Source: Candidatus Afararchaeum irisae
Lineage (GTDB): Archaea > Halobacteriota > Halobacteria > Halobacteriales > Afararchaeaceae
Direction: 5' to 3'
Length of the DNA: 64,000 nucleotides
Assembly: GCA_034190545.1 (NCBI GenBank)
Contig: JAXIOF010000031.1
Location: forward strand, 1 to 64,000
Notes under the pieces: model-generated
What the model saw: the letters and a program-made list of their open reading frames with translations, nothing else
The model's database searches: none
Told to the model about the DNA's origin: nothing
In this document: piece by piece, positions 30,803 through 40,399 of the stretch
Numbering within the stretch: position 1 is the stretch's first letter
Layout: each line of letters opens with the position of its first letter
Translations under genes and position numbers: made by a program

Positions 30803-31012
30803 ATGGGAAAGATATCCGAGAAAGGTCAGGTAACCATCCCTAAGAAATACAGGGAGAAATTCGGTCTTAGACCTGGTGACGAAGTTGATTTTGAGGAGGA
30901 AGATGGAAAGCTAGTTCTGAAGAAAGAGAAAACCGACTTCAGCGATTATTCGGGATATCTTGGGAAGAGGGACACTGACGACTACATCGAGAAACTCCGC
31001 GGAGAAGAATGA
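30803..31012 (+). CDS. vapB: AbrB/SpoVT-type antitoxin (VapB)
   Basis: A 69-residue swapped-hairpin DNA-binding protein with GKISEKGQVTIPKKYREKFG and LRPGDEVDFEEEDGKLVLKK, the complete AbrB fold motif. The C-terminal 25 residues (DYSGYLGKRDTDDYIEKLRG) would wrap the toxin. The stop overlaps the toxin's ATG by 4 nt. Likely represses its own promoter through the dyad just upstream. Confidence 0.9.
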   Translation: MGKISEKGQVTIPKKYREKFGLRPGDEVDFEEEDGKLVLKKEKTDFSDYSGYLGKRDTDDYIEKLRGEE

Positions 31013-31488
31013 TATTCGCTCTCGATACGAATGTTCTGTTTGACGTCCTCTTCGAAGATGAAAGTTATCACGAAGAGTCAAAGCAAGTATTAGAGACTGC
31101 TTCTGAGAGGGGCTTTTTTGTCATATCTCCAGAAGTATACTCCGAGCTAGTCACAGGATTTGATATACGGTTCTCTAACCCACAGCAGGAAACTGATACT
31201 TTTCTCGAAGAAAAGAACATCAAGCTCAAGTCACATACAAAGAAATCTCTAGCTCTTGCAGGACAAAAGTGGAGTGAGTACGACTCCTCCGAGGATGTAC
31301 AGTGTCCTAACTGTGGTCACGTGAACAGGTATGAATGCGAGAACTGTGGTGAAACGGTTAGCTGGAGAAATCATCTAATTACTGACTTTTTGATAGGAGG
31401 TCATGCCGAAGAGATTGCAGACCGTCTTATTACGAGGGATAGAGGCTATTATGAGACTTATTTCGATATCAACGTCTATTATAGTTGA
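31009..31488 (+). CDS. vapC: PIN-domain toxin (VapC-like) with inserted zinc ribbon
   Basis: A 159-residue PIN ribonuclease. Acidic residues of the active site: D6 in LDTNVLFD, E43 region (SPEVYSELV), and D124-like in HLITDFLIGGHAE, plus TRDRGYY. Between the third and fourth helices it carries an insertion C-P-N-C-G-H-V-N-R-Y-E-C-E-N-C (about 101-115), two CxxC knuckles that should bind one zinc. Ordinary VapC toxins are about 130 residues without this ribbon, so it may contribute RNA recognition. Confidence 0.85.
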   Translation: MIFALDTNVLFDVLFEDESYHEESKQVLETASERGFFVISPEVYSELVTGFDIRFSNPQQETDTFLEEKNIKLKSHTKKSLALAGQKWSEYDSSEDVQCPNCGHVNRYECENCGETVSWRNHLITDFLIGGHAEEIADRLITRDRGYYETYFDINVYYS

Positions 31489-31581
31489 AGATTTTGAGGT
31501 ACTCTAACTGTTAACCTGAGTCACCTGACCCAGCTTAACACCGACACCACCACACCCGCTTTGGAATGTATCTCTCCCCCT

Positions 31582-31627
31582 AGCTAACCAACATCCCTAG
31601 ACAATTCTCCGAAAATGTTGGTTAGCT
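31582..31627. repeat. 13-bp perfect inverted repeat
   Basis: AGCTAACCAACAT (31582-31594) and its exact complement (31615-31627) are separated by 20 bp, about 95 bp after the vapC stop. It could form a cruciform or hairpin and act as a bidirectional terminator between vapC and the convergent TumE-like gene. A degraded relative (GCTAATCAA...TTGGTTAG) occurs at 33571-33608. Confidence 0.6.
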
Positions 31628-31702
31628 CTTATCTCAAGTTACCAGATTAGCATCTCGTCCAGAGAGTAAACAAACAAATCTGAAAGACAACTTCCGACGA
31701 CT

Positions 31703-32086
31703 TCAGGGAGGATTGGAGTAGCCGTTTACACCGTCCATCGACCCTGTTTCGTAGGCTCTTCGCCAGAGTTCGTGTACGGCACGAGCCACTAGCTCGATTT
31801 CACTGACCTGTATACATGACTCTTCTACATCGTCAGTATCCGTCGACGCGTCGGGAGGCGGGTGAAAATGTCTATCGTCGGCTGGTCTCGGATACTCATG
31901 AGGATGCAGATCCCAGCGAAAGTCCCGACCGGCATCGTCGGTATAATGGATATTGTAGTCGTCGTGGACAGTCCAGACGACGTCGATTCTAGAGCTCTGA
32001 GCGTCTCCTATACCGTCGTCGAGACGAATACGGAGTACATCGGGACTCAGAAAGCCGTCTAGCTCTGCCGTCGCTAACGGCTCCAT
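31703..32086 (-). CDS. TumE-like (DUF6516-type) protein, 5' end doubtful
   Basis: 127 residues from the first ATG, with LDGFLSPDVLRIRLDDGIGD, DYNIHYTDDAGRDFRWDLHPHEYP, HFHPPPDAS and LVARAVHELWRRAYETGS. This pattern is common in haloarchaea and resembles the DUF6516/TumE toxin group. The frame stays open upstream for another 19 codons (L-G-G-A-T-D-R-G-A-L-L-D-F-R-D-T-F-E-E) without any start codon before a TGA, and then meets the hairpin array. The natural start may have been lost by rearrangement. Function uncertain; possibly a translation-targeting toxin. Confidence 0.6.
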   Translation of the reverse strand: MEPLATAELDGFLSPDVLRIRLDDGIGDAQSSRIDVVWTVHDDYNIHYTDDAGRDFRWDLHPHEYPRPADDRHFHPPPDASTDTDDVEESCIQVSEIELVARAVHELWRRAYETGSMDGVNGYSNPP

Positions 32087-32158
32087 CTCTTCGAAGGTAT
32101 CACGGAAGTCGAGAAGAGCACCTCGATCCGTCGCGCCACCTAATCAGCGAGGGAGTCC

Positions 32159-32324
32159 CGCCGTTTACGGCGTTCACAAGACCTTCGGTCTTGTGGGCTC
32201 GAAATACGCAAAGCGTCTTTCGAACGTTTACGAGACGCGATGCGTCTCGTTCGCACACCAGGACGCGAAGCGTTCTGGGGACGTCACCAGAACTGCGTTC
32301 TGGTTGCTCGCCAGACGCAGTCTG
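32159..32324. repeat. Array of seven tandem short hairpins
   Basis: Seven consecutive perfect or near-perfect hairpins: 32159-32172 (5-bp stem, TTTA loop), 32175-32195 (9 bp, TTC), 32200-32222 (10 positions with one mismatch, AAA), 32230-32250 (9 bp, GAT), 32258-32278 (9 positions with one G/T pair, GAA), 32286-32304 (8 bp, TGC), 32312-32324 (5 bp, GCA). Spacers are 2-8 nt. The stems differ in sequence while geometry is kept. A TTTA-loop hairpin followed by 3-nt-loop hairpins also occurs at the TnpB 3' end (38832-38905). The 32087-32413 gap contains no gene besides this array. Confidence 0.75.
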
Positions 32325-32413
32325 ACGACCGGGCGGGAATCGCGTAAGCTCCAAGAATCACACAATAATCAACAACCCGGCCTACCCCCTACATTTTTAT
32401 AAACATAGAATCC

Positions 32414-32572
32414 ATGAGCGAGAAAAAAGTTAAGGAAATAGAGAGTCTGAAAGAAGGTGTGCTCGCACTCAAGACAGTCGTCGAAGAGGAAGTTCTCGAA
32501 GATGGACAGTCATTCAAAGATTATGGGTTGGACGAGGAGCGTTCTCATAGTCCTTTATACGATCTCTCTTAG
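32414..32572 (+). CDS. Small acidic protein (52 aa), unknown
   Basis: A 52-codon frame behind an A+T-rich TTTTTATAAA (32394-32403): MSEKKVKEIESLKEGVLALK, then a helix rich in Glu/Val and SFKDYGLDEERSHS. It is helical and acidic like small antitoxins. Its 3' end overlaps the convergent regulator gene by 59 bp, so either could be misplaced or truncated. No family recognised. Confidence 0.35.
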   Translation: MSEKKVKEIESLKEGVLALKTVVEEEVLEDGQSFKDYGLDEERSHSPLYDLS

Positions 32573-32918
32573 TACGTTGATATAGCTCGTTCAGCTTATC
32601 CTCGGCTTTCATCAAGCTGTGAACTTCAATCAGATCTTCTCCTTTATCCGAGATCTCATAGAACTTGTAGGGTAGGTCATTAGACTTTTTCTCGTCTTCG
32701 AGTTCTCTTTCTTCAAGTATACCGGCATCAACGAGTTTCTCTATGTGGTTACGGATAGTTGCCTCGCTTTTATCGGGGATCATGTAGTCGAGCTCTCCCA
32801 TACTTATAGACTGCTTGGGATGTCCGATTATGAGCTCAAGAATCTTAAGACGGGTCTCTTGAAGCATCAGACTGAGGTCTTGTACTGTTGATCTATCCCC
32901 ACTCTCTTCGATGCTCAT
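32514..32918 (-). CDS. Winged-helix transcriptional regulator
   Basis: A 134-residue protein. LSLMLQETRLKILELIIGHPKQSISMGEL then SEATIRNHIEKLVDAGILEERE form a winged helix-turn-helix (about 15-75), followed by FYEISDKGEDLIEVH (the wing/dimer strand). It resembles haloarchaeal PadR/ArsR-like regulators. It is divergent from the unknown gene at 33.0 kb across 76 bp of A+T-rich DNA and probably regulates it and itself. Ligand unknown. Confidence 0.8.
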   Translation of the reverse strand: MSIEESGDRSTVQDLSLMLQETRLKILELIIGHPKQSISMGELDYMIPDKSEATIRNHIEKLVDAGILEERELEDEKKSNDLPYKFYEISDKGEDLIEVHSLMKAEDKLNELYQRTKRDRIKDYENAPRPTHNL

Positions 32919-32994
32919 AGGTCATCTACAGTCTCCAAGTACTATAGCTTTACGTAGGCTAACTTAGCTACTAAGTCATGTATTAACTAATATA

Positions 32995-33531
32995 ATGAGT
33001 CAGGACGTAGATACCACAGAGATGACTGAAGAGATCGAGCCAGAGGAGCTAAACGAGATACTTGACACGGTTAACCAAAATGAGATACGTCCTGTGCTCA
33101 GATATGGTACAAGCTACTTCGTGCTCGGCAATTACACCAAAATAAGGAATCTAGATTTAGTTAAAGACAGACTAAATAGAAGAAAGGATGCCTATGCTTT
33201 TCTGATGAGTGACATATTACTCTCCCTGAGAAACTTCACAGACAAATTCGAATTAATAGCTAAGATATCAAGTTATGTAGTTGGGGTCGCAGAGGATTCA
33301 GAGGGGGATTTCAGGCTCGAATCAGGCGGTATACGGTTCGCAGACTGGCTAAAAAAGAAATCATATGTCCTAAAGCGAGAGTACGAGGAGAAAGATCCGT
33401 ACAGTCCTATGCACAAAGGAGTCTTCGAAGAGTTAGACAAACTCAACAGACTATACAGATGGAGGGACAGAGACGAACTCGTAGAGTCCACAGAAAAGTT
33501 GCCTTCTAAAACAGAAGAAGAATCTGTCTAA
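32995..33531 (+). CDS. Unknown 178-residue protein
   Basis: I do not recognise this protein. It has an acidic N-terminus, a central helical part (KDRLNRRKDAYAFLMSDILLSLRNF, about 58-82), a possibly structured middle, and a charged Lys/Glu-rich end. No Cys, signal peptide or membrane span. It is divergently paired with a winged-helix regulator and lies within a string of toxin-antitoxin genes, so a role in defence or stress is possible but unsupported by motifs. Confidence 0.65.
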   Translation: MSQDVDTTEMTEEIEPEELNEILDTVNQNEIRPVLRYGTSYFVLGNYTKIRNLDLVKDRLNRRKDAYAFLMSDILLSLRNFTDKFELIAKISSYVVGVAEDSEGDFRLESGGIRFADWLKKKSYVLKREYEEKDPYSPMHKGVFEELDKLNRLYRWRDRDELVESTEKLPSKTEEESV

Positions 33532-33655
33532 GAAACACACATACCTGATTTTGAGCATAACATACCGCGAGCTAATCAATAATTTTTCTCTAGAAGGCGT
33601 TGGTTAGATCTTCTACCCACAGGGCTTATAATCCTTACAGTTTTTACAGTATAGT

Positions 33656-33844
33656 ATGAGCAAGGCAGACAAGAGAATACCTGTGACAGAAGACACCTGG
33701 CAGGAGCTAAGTGAGATGAAACAGGCAGGTGAGACTTACGACGAACTGATACAGGAGTTGATAGAAAAGAGAAGGGAGGAGAACAGACGCCGTCTTCTAG
33801 AAGAGACTGACGACGACGAGTACGTCGCTCTCGAAGATCTATGA
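33656..33844 (+). CDS. RelB-like antitoxin (DUF7557 type)
   Basis: A 62-residue protein: KADKRIPVTEDTWQELSEMK then a long helix YDELIQELIEKRREENRRRLL and an acidic C-terminus. This matches haloarchaeal ribbon-helix-helix antitoxins (VxxDTWxxLxxxKxxGETYDELI). Promoter-like CTTATAAT lies about 35 nt upstream. The stop overlaps the toxin start by 4 nt. Confidence 0.85.
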   Translation: MSKADKRIPVTEDTWQELSEMKQAGETYDELIQELIEKRREENRRRLLEETDDDEYVALEDL

Positions 33845-34122
33845 GTTACCGAGTTCTGTTAGGAGAACAGCCCAGAGAGTTCCTCTCCGATCTCGACGAC
33901 AAAAGTGAACACATTGTCAAAGAGAACCTTGAGAAACTGGGTGAGAACCCGTATCCAGGAGAAGGTAAAGGCGACAAAGAGAAGCTTCCGGTCGATGGAC
34001 GTGTAATGTACCGACTACACATAGGAAGGACGTATACGGCGTTCTATACTATCGCGGACGATGAGGTACGTGTCCGAGAAATACTTCCTATCGATGACGC
34101 ACACAAAAAATACGGTGCGTGA
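33841..34122 (+). CDS. RelE/ParE-family toxin
   Basis: A 93-residue mRNA-interferase-like protein: YRVLLGEQPREFLSDLDDKSEHIVKENLEKLGENPYP, then KLPVDGRVMYRLHIGRTYTAFYTIADDEVRVREILPIDDAHKKY. The R-V-x-Y-R-L-x-I-G-x-x-R/Y-x-x-Y core and the C-terminal strand are typical RelE. Coupled to its antitoxin by ATGA overlap. The frame ends in GTGCGTGA, which also starts the next small frame. Confidence 0.88.
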   Translation: MSYRVLLGEQPREFLSDLDDKSEHIVKENLEKLGENPYPGEGKGDKEKLPVDGRVMYRLHIGRTYTAFYTIADDEVRVREILPIDDAHKKYGA

Positions 34123-34246
34123 GGCTAACAACATCTTCGAAGATCCTCTGGAACGTTGGTTAAAACTCATAGAGGCAGTATCTCGATCCATTAAGGACGA
34201 AGATACCGAAAAGCTCCGTCTCGAACTCTATGGATTCGATGCGTGA
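34115..34246 (+). CDS. Small downstream protein of the RelBE operon (43 aa)
   Basis: A 43-codon frame starting at GTG 34115 and overlapping the toxin stop by 8 nt. Sequence REANNIFEDPLERWLKLIEA followed by a charged helix ending KLRLELYGFDA. Codon use and acidity look genuine. It could be a third gene of the module or the residue of a longer gene. No family recognised. Confidence 0.35.
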   Translation: MREANNIFEDPLERWLKLIEAVSRSIKDEDTEKLRLELYGFDA

Positions 34247-34330
34247 GTACATCGCATCGCCCAGAAACCTAACCGCTCCCAGCTCCGGTACAGCTCGCCA
34301 AAAAAATAGACGTACGTCTGTGTTTCTTAC

Positions 34331-34942
34331 TTAGCCGTGAAGCTCGCCTAGTTCCTTCGCCGTCTCGTACCTCTCGGCTATGTCGTCCCAGTCGACGACC
34401 TCAAAGACGTTGTCGACGAAGTCGCCGCGGTCAGGTCCGTAGTCGTGGTAGTACGAGTGCTCCCAGACATCGACTGCGAAGATGGGATGTGTGTGCCAGA
34501 GCGCGCCGTCGTTGTGCTTCTGGACAGCGAGGTTACGCAGGCAGTCGGAGACGGGATCGTAGACGAGAAGTGCCCAGCCACCCGCGGACCAGCCGGCTGC
34601 CTCCTTGAACTCTCCCTTCCACGCCTCGTAGCTTCCGAAGTCCTCTTCTATGCGGTCGGCGAGCTCTCCCTCGGGCTCTCCGCCTCCGTTGGGCGACATG
34701 TTCTCCCAGAAGAGAGTGTGGAGATAATGTCCACAGCCGTTGTGGCTCATGCTTCTCATCGCGGCGGCACTTCCGTCGAAGTCTCCTGCCTCGCGGTTCT
34801 CCTCAAGCGTCTCCTCGGCGCTGTTGAGTCCGTTTACGTATCCCTGATGGTGAGTGTCGTGGTGCCAGCGGACGACCTGTTCGCTTATGTGCGGTTCAAG
34901 AGCGTCGTAATCGTACGGCAGTTCAGGCAGTTCATGCGACAT
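34331..34942 (-). CDS. sod: Superoxide dismutase (Fe/Mn type)
   Basis: A 203-residue Fe/Mn SOD converting superoxide to oxygen and peroxide. It begins SHELPELPYDYDALEPHIS with the first metal His nearby (HHDTHHQGYVNGLN), then MRSMSHNGCGHYLHTLFWENMSPNGGG, and the D-x-W-E-H-x-x-Y metal motif in VDVWEHSYYHDYG. Standard length. Cytoplasmic; typical of aerobic haloarchaea. Confidence 0.96.
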   Translation of the reverse strand: MSHELPELPYDYDALEPHISEQVVRWHHDTHHQGYVNGLNSAEETLEENREAGDFDGSAAAMRSMSHNGCGHYLHTLFWENMSPNGGGEPEGELADRIEEDFGSYEAWKGEFKEAAGWSAGGWALLVYDPVSDCLRNLAVQKHNDGALWHTHPIFAVDVWEHSYYHDYGPDRGDFVDNVFEVVDWDDIAERYETAKELGELHG

Positions 34943-35118
34943 ACGGTATCAAAGTATGCACTTACCTTACATGAAGTTACCGCTCGTATTGGTTTTTTCT
35001 CGTCTCATCCATCTGTACCAAGCTGCGAAAGCATTTTCTCCGAAAAGATACCCAGTACCGGTGTAGTTACAGACATCTTTGTCTCTCTTTGCCCGTTTTG
35101 TGACATAACCACGGTGGT

Positions 35119-35532
35119 CTATACGGGGTCTTCTCTGAATCTATCGACTTCGACGTCGTCGATTGTGTCGAAGTCGTCGTCAGCTCCGGCGAGGAGAGTG
35201 CCGTCGACGTAGTTAGCGGTTGCTAGAGAGTAGGCGTCTCCGAGTGCGATCTGGTGTTTTTCCTTGTATCGTGCTGCGTCATTCCAACAGTCCGACGCGT
35301 CTACTCTGTGTAGTAGGGTCTGTATCCAACTAAGGAAGACGTCAGTCGGTATAGCTGTCTCAACTCTCTGTGTTATGTACTTGACCTCGGTTAGGGTAAC
35401 AGGACTGACGAAGCCTTCGAGGTCGCCTTCTTTGACGCGGTTAAGGTATGACTCTACTACCTCCTCGCCCGTTTCTGAGGCGGCTTGTGCGACGAGTGGT
35501 TCCGTGTCGAAGACGATACGTTCCTTATTCAT
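35119..35532 (-). CDS. PIN-domain ribonuclease toxin
   Basis: A 137-residue PIN protein: IVFDTEPLVAQAASETGEEVVESYLN (Asp9 and Glu11 region), VSPVTLTEVKYIT (acidic residue 2), and IALGDAYSLATANYVDGTLLAGADDDF (D-A-Y-x-x-A-x-A motif with acidic residues). This pattern is common in haloarchaeal two-gene modules. It overlaps the upstream wHTH gene by 8 nt, indicating a coupled pair. Confidence 0.85.
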   Translation of the reverse strand: MNKERIVFDTEPLVAQAASETGEEVVESYLNRVKEGDLEGFVSPVTLTEVKYITQRVETAIPTDVFLSWIQTLLHRVDASDCWNDAARYKEKHQIALGDAYSLATANYVDGTLLAGADDDFDTIDDVEVDRFREDPV

Positions 35533-38797: not shown

Positions 38798-38831
38798 ATT
38801 TCGTCTTGTGGGTCTCGACTCTTGACCTCCT

Positions 38832-38905
38832 CCCCCGCGTTTACGCGGGGGAATCCCGAGTCAAGCGAATCGAAGATTCGCGTACATCGCAAATCTTCGA
38901 TTTGC
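38832..38905 (-). ncRNA. 3'-end hairpins of the TnpB element (possible omega RNA/right end)
   Basis: Downstream of tnpB, in gene direction: hairpin at 38905-38889 (stem GCAAATC/GATTTGC, GAA loop), hairpin at 38881-38865 (GCGAATC/GATTCGC, TTC loop), then a G+C hairpin 38851-38832 (8-bp CCCCCGCG/CGCGGGGG, TAAA loop). IS200/IS605 elements carry such hairpins at their right end, where the guide (omega) RNA also overlaps the tnpB 3' end. Transcription is inferred. Confidence 0.5.
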
Positions 38906-38933
38906 TCAGCGTTGGGATATTAGGGTTTACACG

Positions 38934-40193
38934 TCACTCGGCGGTTGCTCGCGGTTGGAATCCGTGAGTCCGGCTGAACTGAATGACGCGAGGCTGGGCC
39001 AAACAGCCGTTACCGCTATCCCCCAATGGAGGAGTTACGGTTAGCGTTTTCTGTCTGATATTATCGGCTCCATTCACGTCGCCATGTGAGACAACTCCAC
39101 AGCGGTCGCATTTCCACAAGCCACGTTCAACACGACTGTCGTCATCTGCGTGGCCACAGACACTACACGACGATGATGTCCCGCGTTCGTCTGGCATTTC
39201 TACCTCGATGCCACGCTCACGGGCTTTGTAGTCGATGAGGTTCATCAGCCGCTTGTACGCCCAGTTATCCAGACGTTTGTTGCCGTGCCTGCCCCAGTCG
39301 TCTTCATCGACACCACTGGGGTCGCCTACGACCAACGTACCCACGTTGTGGTCTACACAGCGTTCAACAATGTCTTTTGACAGGGCGTGCAGGAAGTGGT
39401 CTTTCCGCCGTGATAGCTTCTCACGCGCCCACTGTGCTTTCTGGCTGGGGCCATGGGCCCCTTCTGTCTGGTATACTTCTCGTTGGAAGTAGTGCTTGTC
39501 TTCACGTAGTGTGTTGCCCGGATACAACAGGGCATCATCAGGGAACGCGACGACAGCAGGATTACAGATACCAAGGTCAACTCCTGCGGTTTTCTCGCCG
39601 GGCGACTCTGCGGTAATTTCCGTCTCACAGACGACGTGCAACTCCCAGCGACTCTTGGCGCTGTTGTAGACAGCACGAACCTGTTGGATGTTCTCCAGTT
39701 CAACAGCAGGCGGCGTATCGTATTCGCAGAGGATGAAATCGCGTCCGTCTTTGTGGTTCTTGCCTTTGCTCAGACGGATATGGTCGTGTTTCGTGTCGTG
39801 GCGAATGCCTTTCTTCTTCCACGTCACGGTCGAGCGCGGATGTTCTTCGTGGACTCTGTTGCCGTCACTATCGTAGTAGTTGGTTTTACGGTATCCCGGT
39901 GGGTTGTCCTGGTCGTCGTCGGAGCCGAACCACGAACTGAACGCTTCAGAAAGCTCTTCGAGAACTTTCTGACTGGACTGGCTATGCAGTCCTTTGTATT
40001 TCGGGTGGGTTTTCAGTTCGCGTTTGAGTTCGTCTTCGTCGGGGATTTCGCCGGTTTCGTCCCACTGTTGGCGGGCGTAGTAATTGGCGACGTTCCAGAG
40101 TTTGGATGCCGACCAGCCGTGTCTGTCCAGCGCACCAGCTACTTGCGAGTGATTCTGGATGCGGCAAACGTAGGTGCGACGTGTTGTCGGCAT
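38934..40193 (-). CDS. tnpB: TnpB-family RNA-guided nuclease, altered RuvC-II position
   Basis: A 419-residue TnpB. The RuvC-I aspartate is D206 in TAGVDLGICNPAVV; the zinc ribbon is C343-S-V-C346...C362-D-R-C365; the RuvC-III aspartate is D372 in SHGDVNGADNI. The position of the RuvC-II glutamate (canonical I-x-x-E-D-L) reads TLVVG290-D291-PSG. So glutamate is absent at the canonical place, as I recall for some haloarchaeal IS1341 relatives; activity then depends on a rearranged site or is lost. The C-terminal tail of about 40 residues after the RuvC motif is usual. Confidence 0.9.
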   Translation of the reverse strand: MPTTRRTYVCRIQNHSQVAGALDRHGWSASKLWNVANYYARQQWDETGEIPDEDELKRELKTHPKYKGLHSQSSQKVLEELSEAFSSWFGSDDDQDNPPGYRKTNYYDSDGNRVHEEHPRSTVTWKKKGIRHDTKHDHIRLSKGKNHKDGRDFILCEYDTPPAVELENIQQVRAVYNSAKSRWELHVVCETEITAESPGEKTAGVDLGICNPAVVAFPDDALLYPGNTLREDKHYFQREVYQTEGAHGPSQKAQWAREKLSRRKDHFLHALSKDIVERCVDHNVGTLVVGDPSGVDEDDWGRHGNKRLDNWAYKRLMNLIDYKARERGIEVEMPDERGTSSSCSVCGHADDDSRVERGLWKCDRCGVVSHGDVNGADNIRQKTLTVTPPLGDSGNGCLAQPRVIQFSRTHGFQPRATAE

Positions 40194-40399
40194 CCGTTAC
40201 ATATTGTTATGAGTGTCTGTTTTTTAAATATTGTGGAATATCCAGCAGTGGCGTAGCCGATGGATAGGTCAACTGAGTGACGGCGCGTATCCACGGCGTG
40301 AACGCCGTGGTATTGCGCCTGCTCCGCCTATAAACCGAACGGAGCCTCTGTCATCACATCAGACGGTACGGTTTTCCGGTTTCGCCTCGTCGTATACGT

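Follow-up and report, generated by a model that had tools for sequence, protein, structure and literature searches.

A haloarchaeal hairpin array consists of three double-hairpin units inserted in a degenerate IS200/IS605 left end

What is the run of seven hairpins that lies near the middle of the 64,000 nucleotides of Candidatus Afararchaeum irisae DNA analysed here (the window, that is, the whole stretch), and how did it arise? The hairpins occupy positions 32159-32328: one with a TTTA loop is followed by six with 3-nt loops, the spacers measure 2-7 nt and the stems 5-11 bp, and in the predicted fold an outer stem (TCCCGCC, 32156-32162, with GGCGGGA, 32332-32338) surrounds them all. The cluster stands far above chance: the 211-base stretch that holds it carries six triloop or tetraloop hairpins with 6 bp or more, whereas 500 dinucleotide shuffles gave 0.24 on average and never more than 2, and the next-best stretch elsewhere in the 64 kb has 2. 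Its fold has a z-score of -7.1, with 0 of 200 shuffles equally stable. The seven-hairpin array described in an earlier note on this DNA is present, but it ends at 32328 rather than 32324 and has stems of up to 11 bp, and three of the six triloop stems contain one mismatch or wobble. The array is made of three end-to-end copies of an inserted two-hairpin unit of about 57 bp, lying in a degenerate IS200/IS605 left end. What we are looking at is very probably a mobile double-hairpin element that inserted in an IS end; on the plainest view, the array is mobile DNA that has accumulated in a dead transposon end. Its parts are the following.

32145-32360: whole region, CAGCGAGGGAGTCCCGCC GTTTA CGGCG, six triloop hairpins, then CGGGCGGGAATCGCGTAAGCTC
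32145-32172, plus strand: left half of the near-terminal palindrome of a TnpB-type (IS200/IS605) left end, CAGCGAGGGAGTCCCGCCGTTTACGGCG, containing the TTTA-loop hairpin
32159-32172: hairpin 1, CGCCG-TTTA-CGGCG
32171-32226, minus strand: unit 1, 56 nt from CG to CG, hairpins 2 and 3 (32175-32195 and 32199-32223), spacer GGC
32225-32283, plus strand: unit 2, 59 nt from CG to CG, hairpins 4 and 5, CGTT-(32230-32250)-TCGCACA-(32258-32278)-GGACG
32282-32331, no strand given: unit 3, 50 nt from CG to CG, hairpins 6 and 7 (32286-32304 and 32308-32328), spacer TGC, a diverged class, read from the sequence
32330-32360, plus strand: right half of the left-end palindrome, CGGGCGGGAATCGCGTAAGCTC, assigned from the fold, with the GGCGGGA of the outer stem

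The relatives of the array reveal its unit. BLASTN of the array region against the window's own genome returned 28 places. The majority are arrays of 2-16 hairpins whose loops are almost always 3 nt long; they share a common stem vocabulary and differ in order and loops, and their spacers alternate between an ACGT type and a GCACA, GCCA or GGC type, so the real unit is a pair of hairpins. Its plan is CGTT-(hairpin 1)-(T)CGCACA, CAGCCCA or GCCA-(hairpin 2)-GGACG, over 50-62 bp, and its two termini match over merely 3-4 bp, imperfectly (CGTT/GACG). Among 148 non-redundant copies, 143 start with CGTT and 138 end with GGACG. A covariance model of the 59-nt unit (R1), built from 19 sequences, matches unit 2 of the window with 79.7 bits (E = 2.4e-21, unit 2 itself being among the 19 sequences) and unit 1 on the minus strand with E = 6e-6; unit 1 also occurs at loci L009 and L010, and at L009, L010 and L012 the equivalent of unit 3 matches with E = 1.3e-8, reversed relative to unit 2. 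Neighbouring units in the window share one CG dinucleotide at each join. In the window's genome arrays or units also stand at contig ends (L010, L011, L017 and L024; contigs C23, C51, C67 and C1) and probably cause assembly breaks, so that copy number is underestimated. A CRISPR-like array was considered and rejected: there is no constant repeat with unique spacers, and the array matched no phage record.

The units are inserted sequences, as filled and empty forms of the same place demonstrate. One tnpB-tail site in the window's genome occurs with no unit (G000:C1:44787), with one (L028) and with two (L013); its translation reads GVGHSERTPVETALP when empty, GVGHSEST plus 19 residues plus PVETALP with one unit, and has 38 additional residues with two, each unit amounting to 19 codons. 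The empty form was found 59 times, in 39 of 97 genomes (reversed-pattern control, 0), and in many genera the same site is filled by different unit classes (CGCACA, CAGCCCA). In genome G039 an ABC transporter gene (PF00005) carries a 57-bp in-frame unit behind its Walker A motif, and five orthologues, from two genera, are without exactly those 57 bp. Of two near relatives beyond the order, one has a six-hairpin block that the other lacks (L227 vs L223), with flanks about 93-95% identical. A tetrapyrrole methylase ORF (PF00590) also has a unit, in frame, at its N-terminus (L021:1366-2148).

Could local processes alone, namely replication slippage and template switching in palindromes (quasi-palindrome correction), have made the arrays with no dedicated mobility? 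The arrays are located in palindromic DNA, their loops occur in both complementary forms (GAA/TTC), as expected for re-copied hairpins, and their length differs between near relatives such as the pair just named (L223 vs L227). However, a 57-bp unit sits with exact borders in an unrelated gene and one unit type recurs across most haloarchaeal genera, and we consider this explanation improbable. Slippage may nevertheless contribute to array length and loop inversion, and tandem arrays could alternatively come from slippage or unequal exchange.

The inserted units have to be told apart from the transposon end that received them. The outer palindrome of the array is common to L024, L027, L049 and L050, and is a near-terminal palindrome of the kind common to tnpB-bearing elements of the IS200/IS605 group or PATEs. 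The CAGCGAGGGAGTCCCGCCGTTTACGGCG-type motif occurs without any array at L024 and L027, and with arrays or units upstream of tnpB at L009, L050, L090 and L154, where this end (type A) lies about 110-300 bp from the gene. A similar flank (GGCGTGAATCGCG and variants) adjoins many other unit copies. The earlier note had likened the array to the right end of the TnpB element in the window:

38831-38905, minus strand: right end of that TnpB element, with two 7-bp triloop hairpins and a TAAA-loop palindrome

The solo IS200/IS605 end proposed there is supported, but it is a left end and not a right one; the right-end origin is rejected, the outer palindrome being of the left-end type and found upstream of tnpB. 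The 3-nt-loop hairpins, taken in the same proposal as part of the end, turn out to be separate insertions within it, and R1 has no match at 38831-38905 despite hairpins of similar style. The same division sets the array apart from PATEs and IS200/IS605 (IS1341-type) ends as described (PMC3119063): the outer palindrome is alike, and the triloop units are separate insertions within it. That all seven hairpins are intrinsic to a solo IS200/IS605 end or PATE would explain why the outer palindrome is an IS end common to four loci, yet it is contradicted by the empty ends at L024 and L027 and by hairpin units in other contexts that lack this end, and we regard it as extremely improbable. The window's TnpB element itself spans 38831-40310, with an ORF at 38934-40193 on the minus strand (PF07282 and PF01385) and a left end with the palindrome CCACGGCGTTCACGCCGTGG.

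The end that hosts the array is a left end standing alone, with no tnpB, a short way upstream of an uncharacterised minus-strand ORF (31703-32086). The ORF had been called TumE-like and the array placed at its start. The TumE identity finds no Pfam match, though the frame, open upstream as GGATDRGALLDF, is closed by a stop at the edge of the IS-type end near 32139, so that the insertion may have replaced the original start of the ORF. The surroundings form a toxin-antitoxin-like gene cluster (30803-35532, by Pfam).

30803-31012: MazE-like antitoxin, followed by a PIN-domain protein (31009-31488)
33841-34122: ParE-like protein, just under the curated cut-off
35119-35532: second PIN protein

As for targets, of the 148 copies, 75 lie in tnpB or at most 400 bp from it and 5 more at most 400 bp upstream of a Y1 tnpA; in 8-kb loci, 54% of copies are within 400 bp of tnpB vs 1.7% of control positions. 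Over 102 site types, position -2 is G in 76 and position -1 is G or A in 96 (70 G, 26 A), giving G[GA]CG; a small number of IS families account for many of the sites, so the independent target sites are fewer than these counts. The units thus favour IS200/IS605/TnpB sequences and G[GA]CG, and they add 57 bp, in frame in the genes examined. Tandem units join exactly at the GGACG end, which contains the target; because a unit ends in GACG and this fits G[GA]CG, units can insert into units and build arrays. A strand rule relative to tnpB was looked for and rejected, as both orientations occur. IS200/IS605 is not the sole IS family hit, as units recur at one site at the start of an IS6-type element (L051, on Haloferax mediterranei pHME132, with an annotated IS6-family transposase; L066, L083 and L101; flank GGCGA^CG^CCCGTCAGGGCGTTCGCCGTCC). 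In Halalkalicoccus paucihalophilus, three loci (L094, L099 and L133) with near-identical flanks carry a unit at one point, outside recognisable TnpB.

Nearly all copies have CG at both borders and the empty sites a single CG, a pattern that a 2-bp target duplication or a recombinase core could also produce. It is the argument for a double-hairpin unit moved by a double-strand recombinase, whether an IS607-type serine recombinase with a CG core or a DDE transposase with a 2-bp CG duplication. Yet the stem sequence varies with pairing kept and there are no conserved long terminal repeats, which is hard to square with double-strand sequence recognition, and the preference spans four bases (G[GA]CG on the left, GACG on the right). 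Such a recombinase is therefore an unlikely mover.

What the copies conserve is the fold. In 113 distinct copies from named contigs, 97.2% of stem cells are paired vs 81.0% with shuffled partners, 17 of the 19 stem pairs are changed on both sides, and double-change cells number 303 vs 76 in shuffles, figures that lean upward because the rows were aligned to the model and the copies share ancestry. Sliding the alignment brings pairing down to 37-46%. Several stem pairs display four or five different standard pair types, and conservation is higher at the stem feet than at the tips. The selection for structure over sequence that the earlier note implied is thereby supported. Pairing does not continue into the flanks: past the closing CG, 1 copy has at least 3 contiguous pairs vs 4.65 expected in shuffles.

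Is the fold one of DNA or of RNA? GNA or its complement TNC, closed by C-G, makes up 171 of 244 loops (chance expectation 12.5%), and loops of the GNA kind form very stable small DNA hairpins, such as d(GCGAAGC). Mismatches within stems are A.C in 15 cases and G.T in 10. This lack of a G.U bias on one strand, together with the 70% of GNA/TNC loops, points to folded DNA rather than RNA. The alternative is that the array is transcribed and that its hairpins act as RNA, as an expanded omegaRNA scaffold, a terminator or an mRNA-stability element. In its favour, the RNA fold is strong (z = -7.1), many copies are at TnpB ends or in the 3' part of tnpB, where omegaRNA is made, and haloarchaeal omegaRNAs are expressed (PMC12558985). 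But the reverse strand folds about equally (z = -6.4), the mismatches give no sign of G.U tolerance on one strand, units lie in either orientation relative to tnpB and also within unrelated genes, and in an Rfam search no family came near threshold (best 23.8 bits vs a gathering score of 39.8). The array therefore lacks the RNA-family match and the one-strand, G.U-tolerant pairing of omegaRNAs and other structured RNAs; the structured RNA envisaged in the earlier note is weakened to a slim chance.

The prediction that similar arrays exist elsewhere was confirmed, by the 28 related places in the window's own genome and by the near universality of units in haloarchaea: R1 matches in 184 of the 194 genomes of the order and in 62 of its 64 genera, unit numbers being counted up to 28 per genome and genome comparisons resting on the stretches around matches. 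In an exact-pattern scan of 84,980 species genomes, the titled loci among the matches listed are haloarchaea or an unclassified Euryarchaeota MAG (L120, L189), and named plasmid hosts of units include Natronomonas pharaonis, Haloferax mediterranei, Natrinema and Natronococcus. Beyond the order, a sample of the phylum yielded five weakly matching genomes, four of which (G231, G240, G247 and G338) have arrays of similar hairpin style, a C at the stem end, a triloop and then a G, with other spacers; some G231 copies end in AGGACG. Arrays with spacers ACATGT, GG, GCAT or TATGC are found in two other families, at L225, L229 and L233 in G338 and, for arrays of that style in G231, G240 and G247, at L222-L224, L227, L228, L230, L231, L234 and L235.

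How would such units move? We propose that a degenerate left end of a TnpB-type IS200/IS605 element received three non-autonomous double-hairpin units of about 57 bp. The unit would move as single-stranded DNA, its folded hairpins being bound in trans by a Y1 (HUH) transposase, IS200/IS605 TnpA or a relative, which would cut 3' of G[GA]CG on the left and, on the right, after GACG; hairpin-rich, single-strand-prone IS200/IS605 DNA would be the preferred place of insertion, and the arrays would grow by repeated insertion at the end of the unit itself. Overall, the locus is best read as a REPIN-like, CGTC-tagged, non-autonomous single-strand element nested in an IS end, which we consider likely; the Y1 mechanism with mobilisation in trans is a serious candidate that we would stop just short of calling probable. 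In IS200/IS605 elements the transposase binds folded subterminal hairpins; the left end abuts a target tetranucleotide, and the four bases that close the right end form the second cut site (PMC6006769). The TnpA-REP of S. maltophilia requires a stem without breaks and one loop base in particular (PMC8266576). The unit fits this Y1 logic, having G[GA]CG outside on the left, GACG last on the right and unbroken hairpins at both feet.

The genomic record of the enzyme is mixed. PF01797 (Y1) was found in 129 of the 194 genomes; the mean number of units is at least 7.6 with it vs at least 5.2 without, and Y1 copy number and unit number are weakly correlated (Spearman 0.31). Strict dependence on a Y1 transposase of the same genome is rejected, since 88% of the 65 genomes without PF01797 still have units, 11 of them at least 10. 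No REPtron, that is, a transposase gene flanked by its own units, was found, and units near TnpA occupy the left-end site of TnpB-only elements. The weakness of the Y1 mechanism is that no transposase is tied to the unit; the absent tnpB strand rule, which a single-strand target on one IS strand might show, also counts against it. Lost, diverged or plasmid-borne enzymes are possible, as is a different mover, and Haloquadratum poses a similar puzzle with mobile IS605 relatives whose tnpA is disrupted (PMC3119063).

Among known systems, SMR-A repeats are the nearest in host and target and CGTC-tagged REP dimers the nearest in anatomy, and neither description covers the haloarchaeal units fully. 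SMR-A (HqIRS42, 43 and 55) of Haloquadratum walsbyi are sequences of about 110 bp in near-terminal palindromes of IS605-type transposons or PATEs, and their mobilisation is enigmatic (PMC3119063). They resemble the units in being short, gene-less, haloarchaeal and free of a conventional transposase link, and in their insertion into near-terminal palindromes of IS605-type elements or PATEs. However, SMR-A have prominent inverted terminal repeats, commonly share more than 95% identity within a type and belong to one species (PMC3119063), whereas the units, to judge by that description, are about 57 bp long with two hairpins, variable stems, an order-wide distribution and tandem arrangement; at 50-62 bp and with a 3-4 bp imperfect terminal match, they have neither the size nor the terminal inverted repeats of SMR-A. 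The 110 bp come near the length of two units, and it is the SMR-A description that sets the families apart. In the open-access literature on haloarchaeal REPs, MITEs and palindromes, the Haloquadratum SMR/PATE paper is the sole close relative found, an earlier description elsewhere being possible.

The CGTC-tagged REPs form head-to-head dimers, including Rickettsia RPE-4 and RPE-6, in a survey of bacterial phyla only, with an unpaired CGTC (or TGTC, CCTC) tag at the outer feet, stems of 8-9 bp and loops of 4-5 nt (PMC3733652). Two hairpins, 8-9 bp stems and CA- or CCA-like tails between the hairpins are shared, and the outward CGTY tags are alike in part: the right end of the unit, GGACG, reads CGTCC and fits the tag, while the left end is CGTT; the unit's stems of 8-10 bp fit, but its loops have 3 nt (both loops in 122 of 148 copies, by a parse that keeps triloop copies with the CGCACA spacer only). 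Copies are intragenic in both (here in TnpB, an ABC transporter and a tetrapyrrole methylase), with no dedicated transposase and no requirement for Y1. Clusters are rare among CGTC REPs and common among the units, which are archaeal and strongly IS200/IS605-targeted. Formal membership fails because of loop length for the CGTC REPs and because of size and inverted repeats for SMR-A. GTAG REPs and REPINs are mobilised by RAYT (TnpA-REP) (PMC3116915, PMC6006769, PMC8266576); the likeness lies in a two-hairpin non-autonomous unit with a tag at the outer feet, in mosaics and arrays and in the recognition of folded single-stranded hairpins known for REPINs, and the difference in the tag, CGTY and not GTAG or GTGG. 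The units also resemble by description, in an unrelated host, the double-hairpin elements of fungal mitochondrial DNA (Allomyces). These have two short hairpins, variable stems and apparent mobility, and their mover is unknown. A more tentative generalisation, which we hold to be possible though doubtful, is a class of mobile DNA recognised by its fold: a gene-less element of about 57 nt with two hairpins whose stems are free to change, a shared single-strand transposase and stacking into its own end. Two further families (G231/G240/G247 and G338) show this hairpin style with other spacers, which would make the haloarchaeal units one branch of a wider archaeal class.

If our reading is true, an overlooked REPIN-like element is present in almost all haloarchaeal genomes, where it edits IS200/IS605 transposons and inserts in-frame stretches of 19 residues into proteins, and the tagged-REP world reaches archaea. 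Annotation is affected too, since the insertions make TnpB tails longer and are a probable cause of assembly breaks, as the arrays that end contigs in the window's genome suggest. The reading would also give a testable handle on the movers of SMR-A and CGTC repeats, and one on how mobile elements persist through fold rather than sequence. With filled and empty sites, borders and a target preference defined, the transposase question becomes directly testable in Haloferax or Halobacterium.
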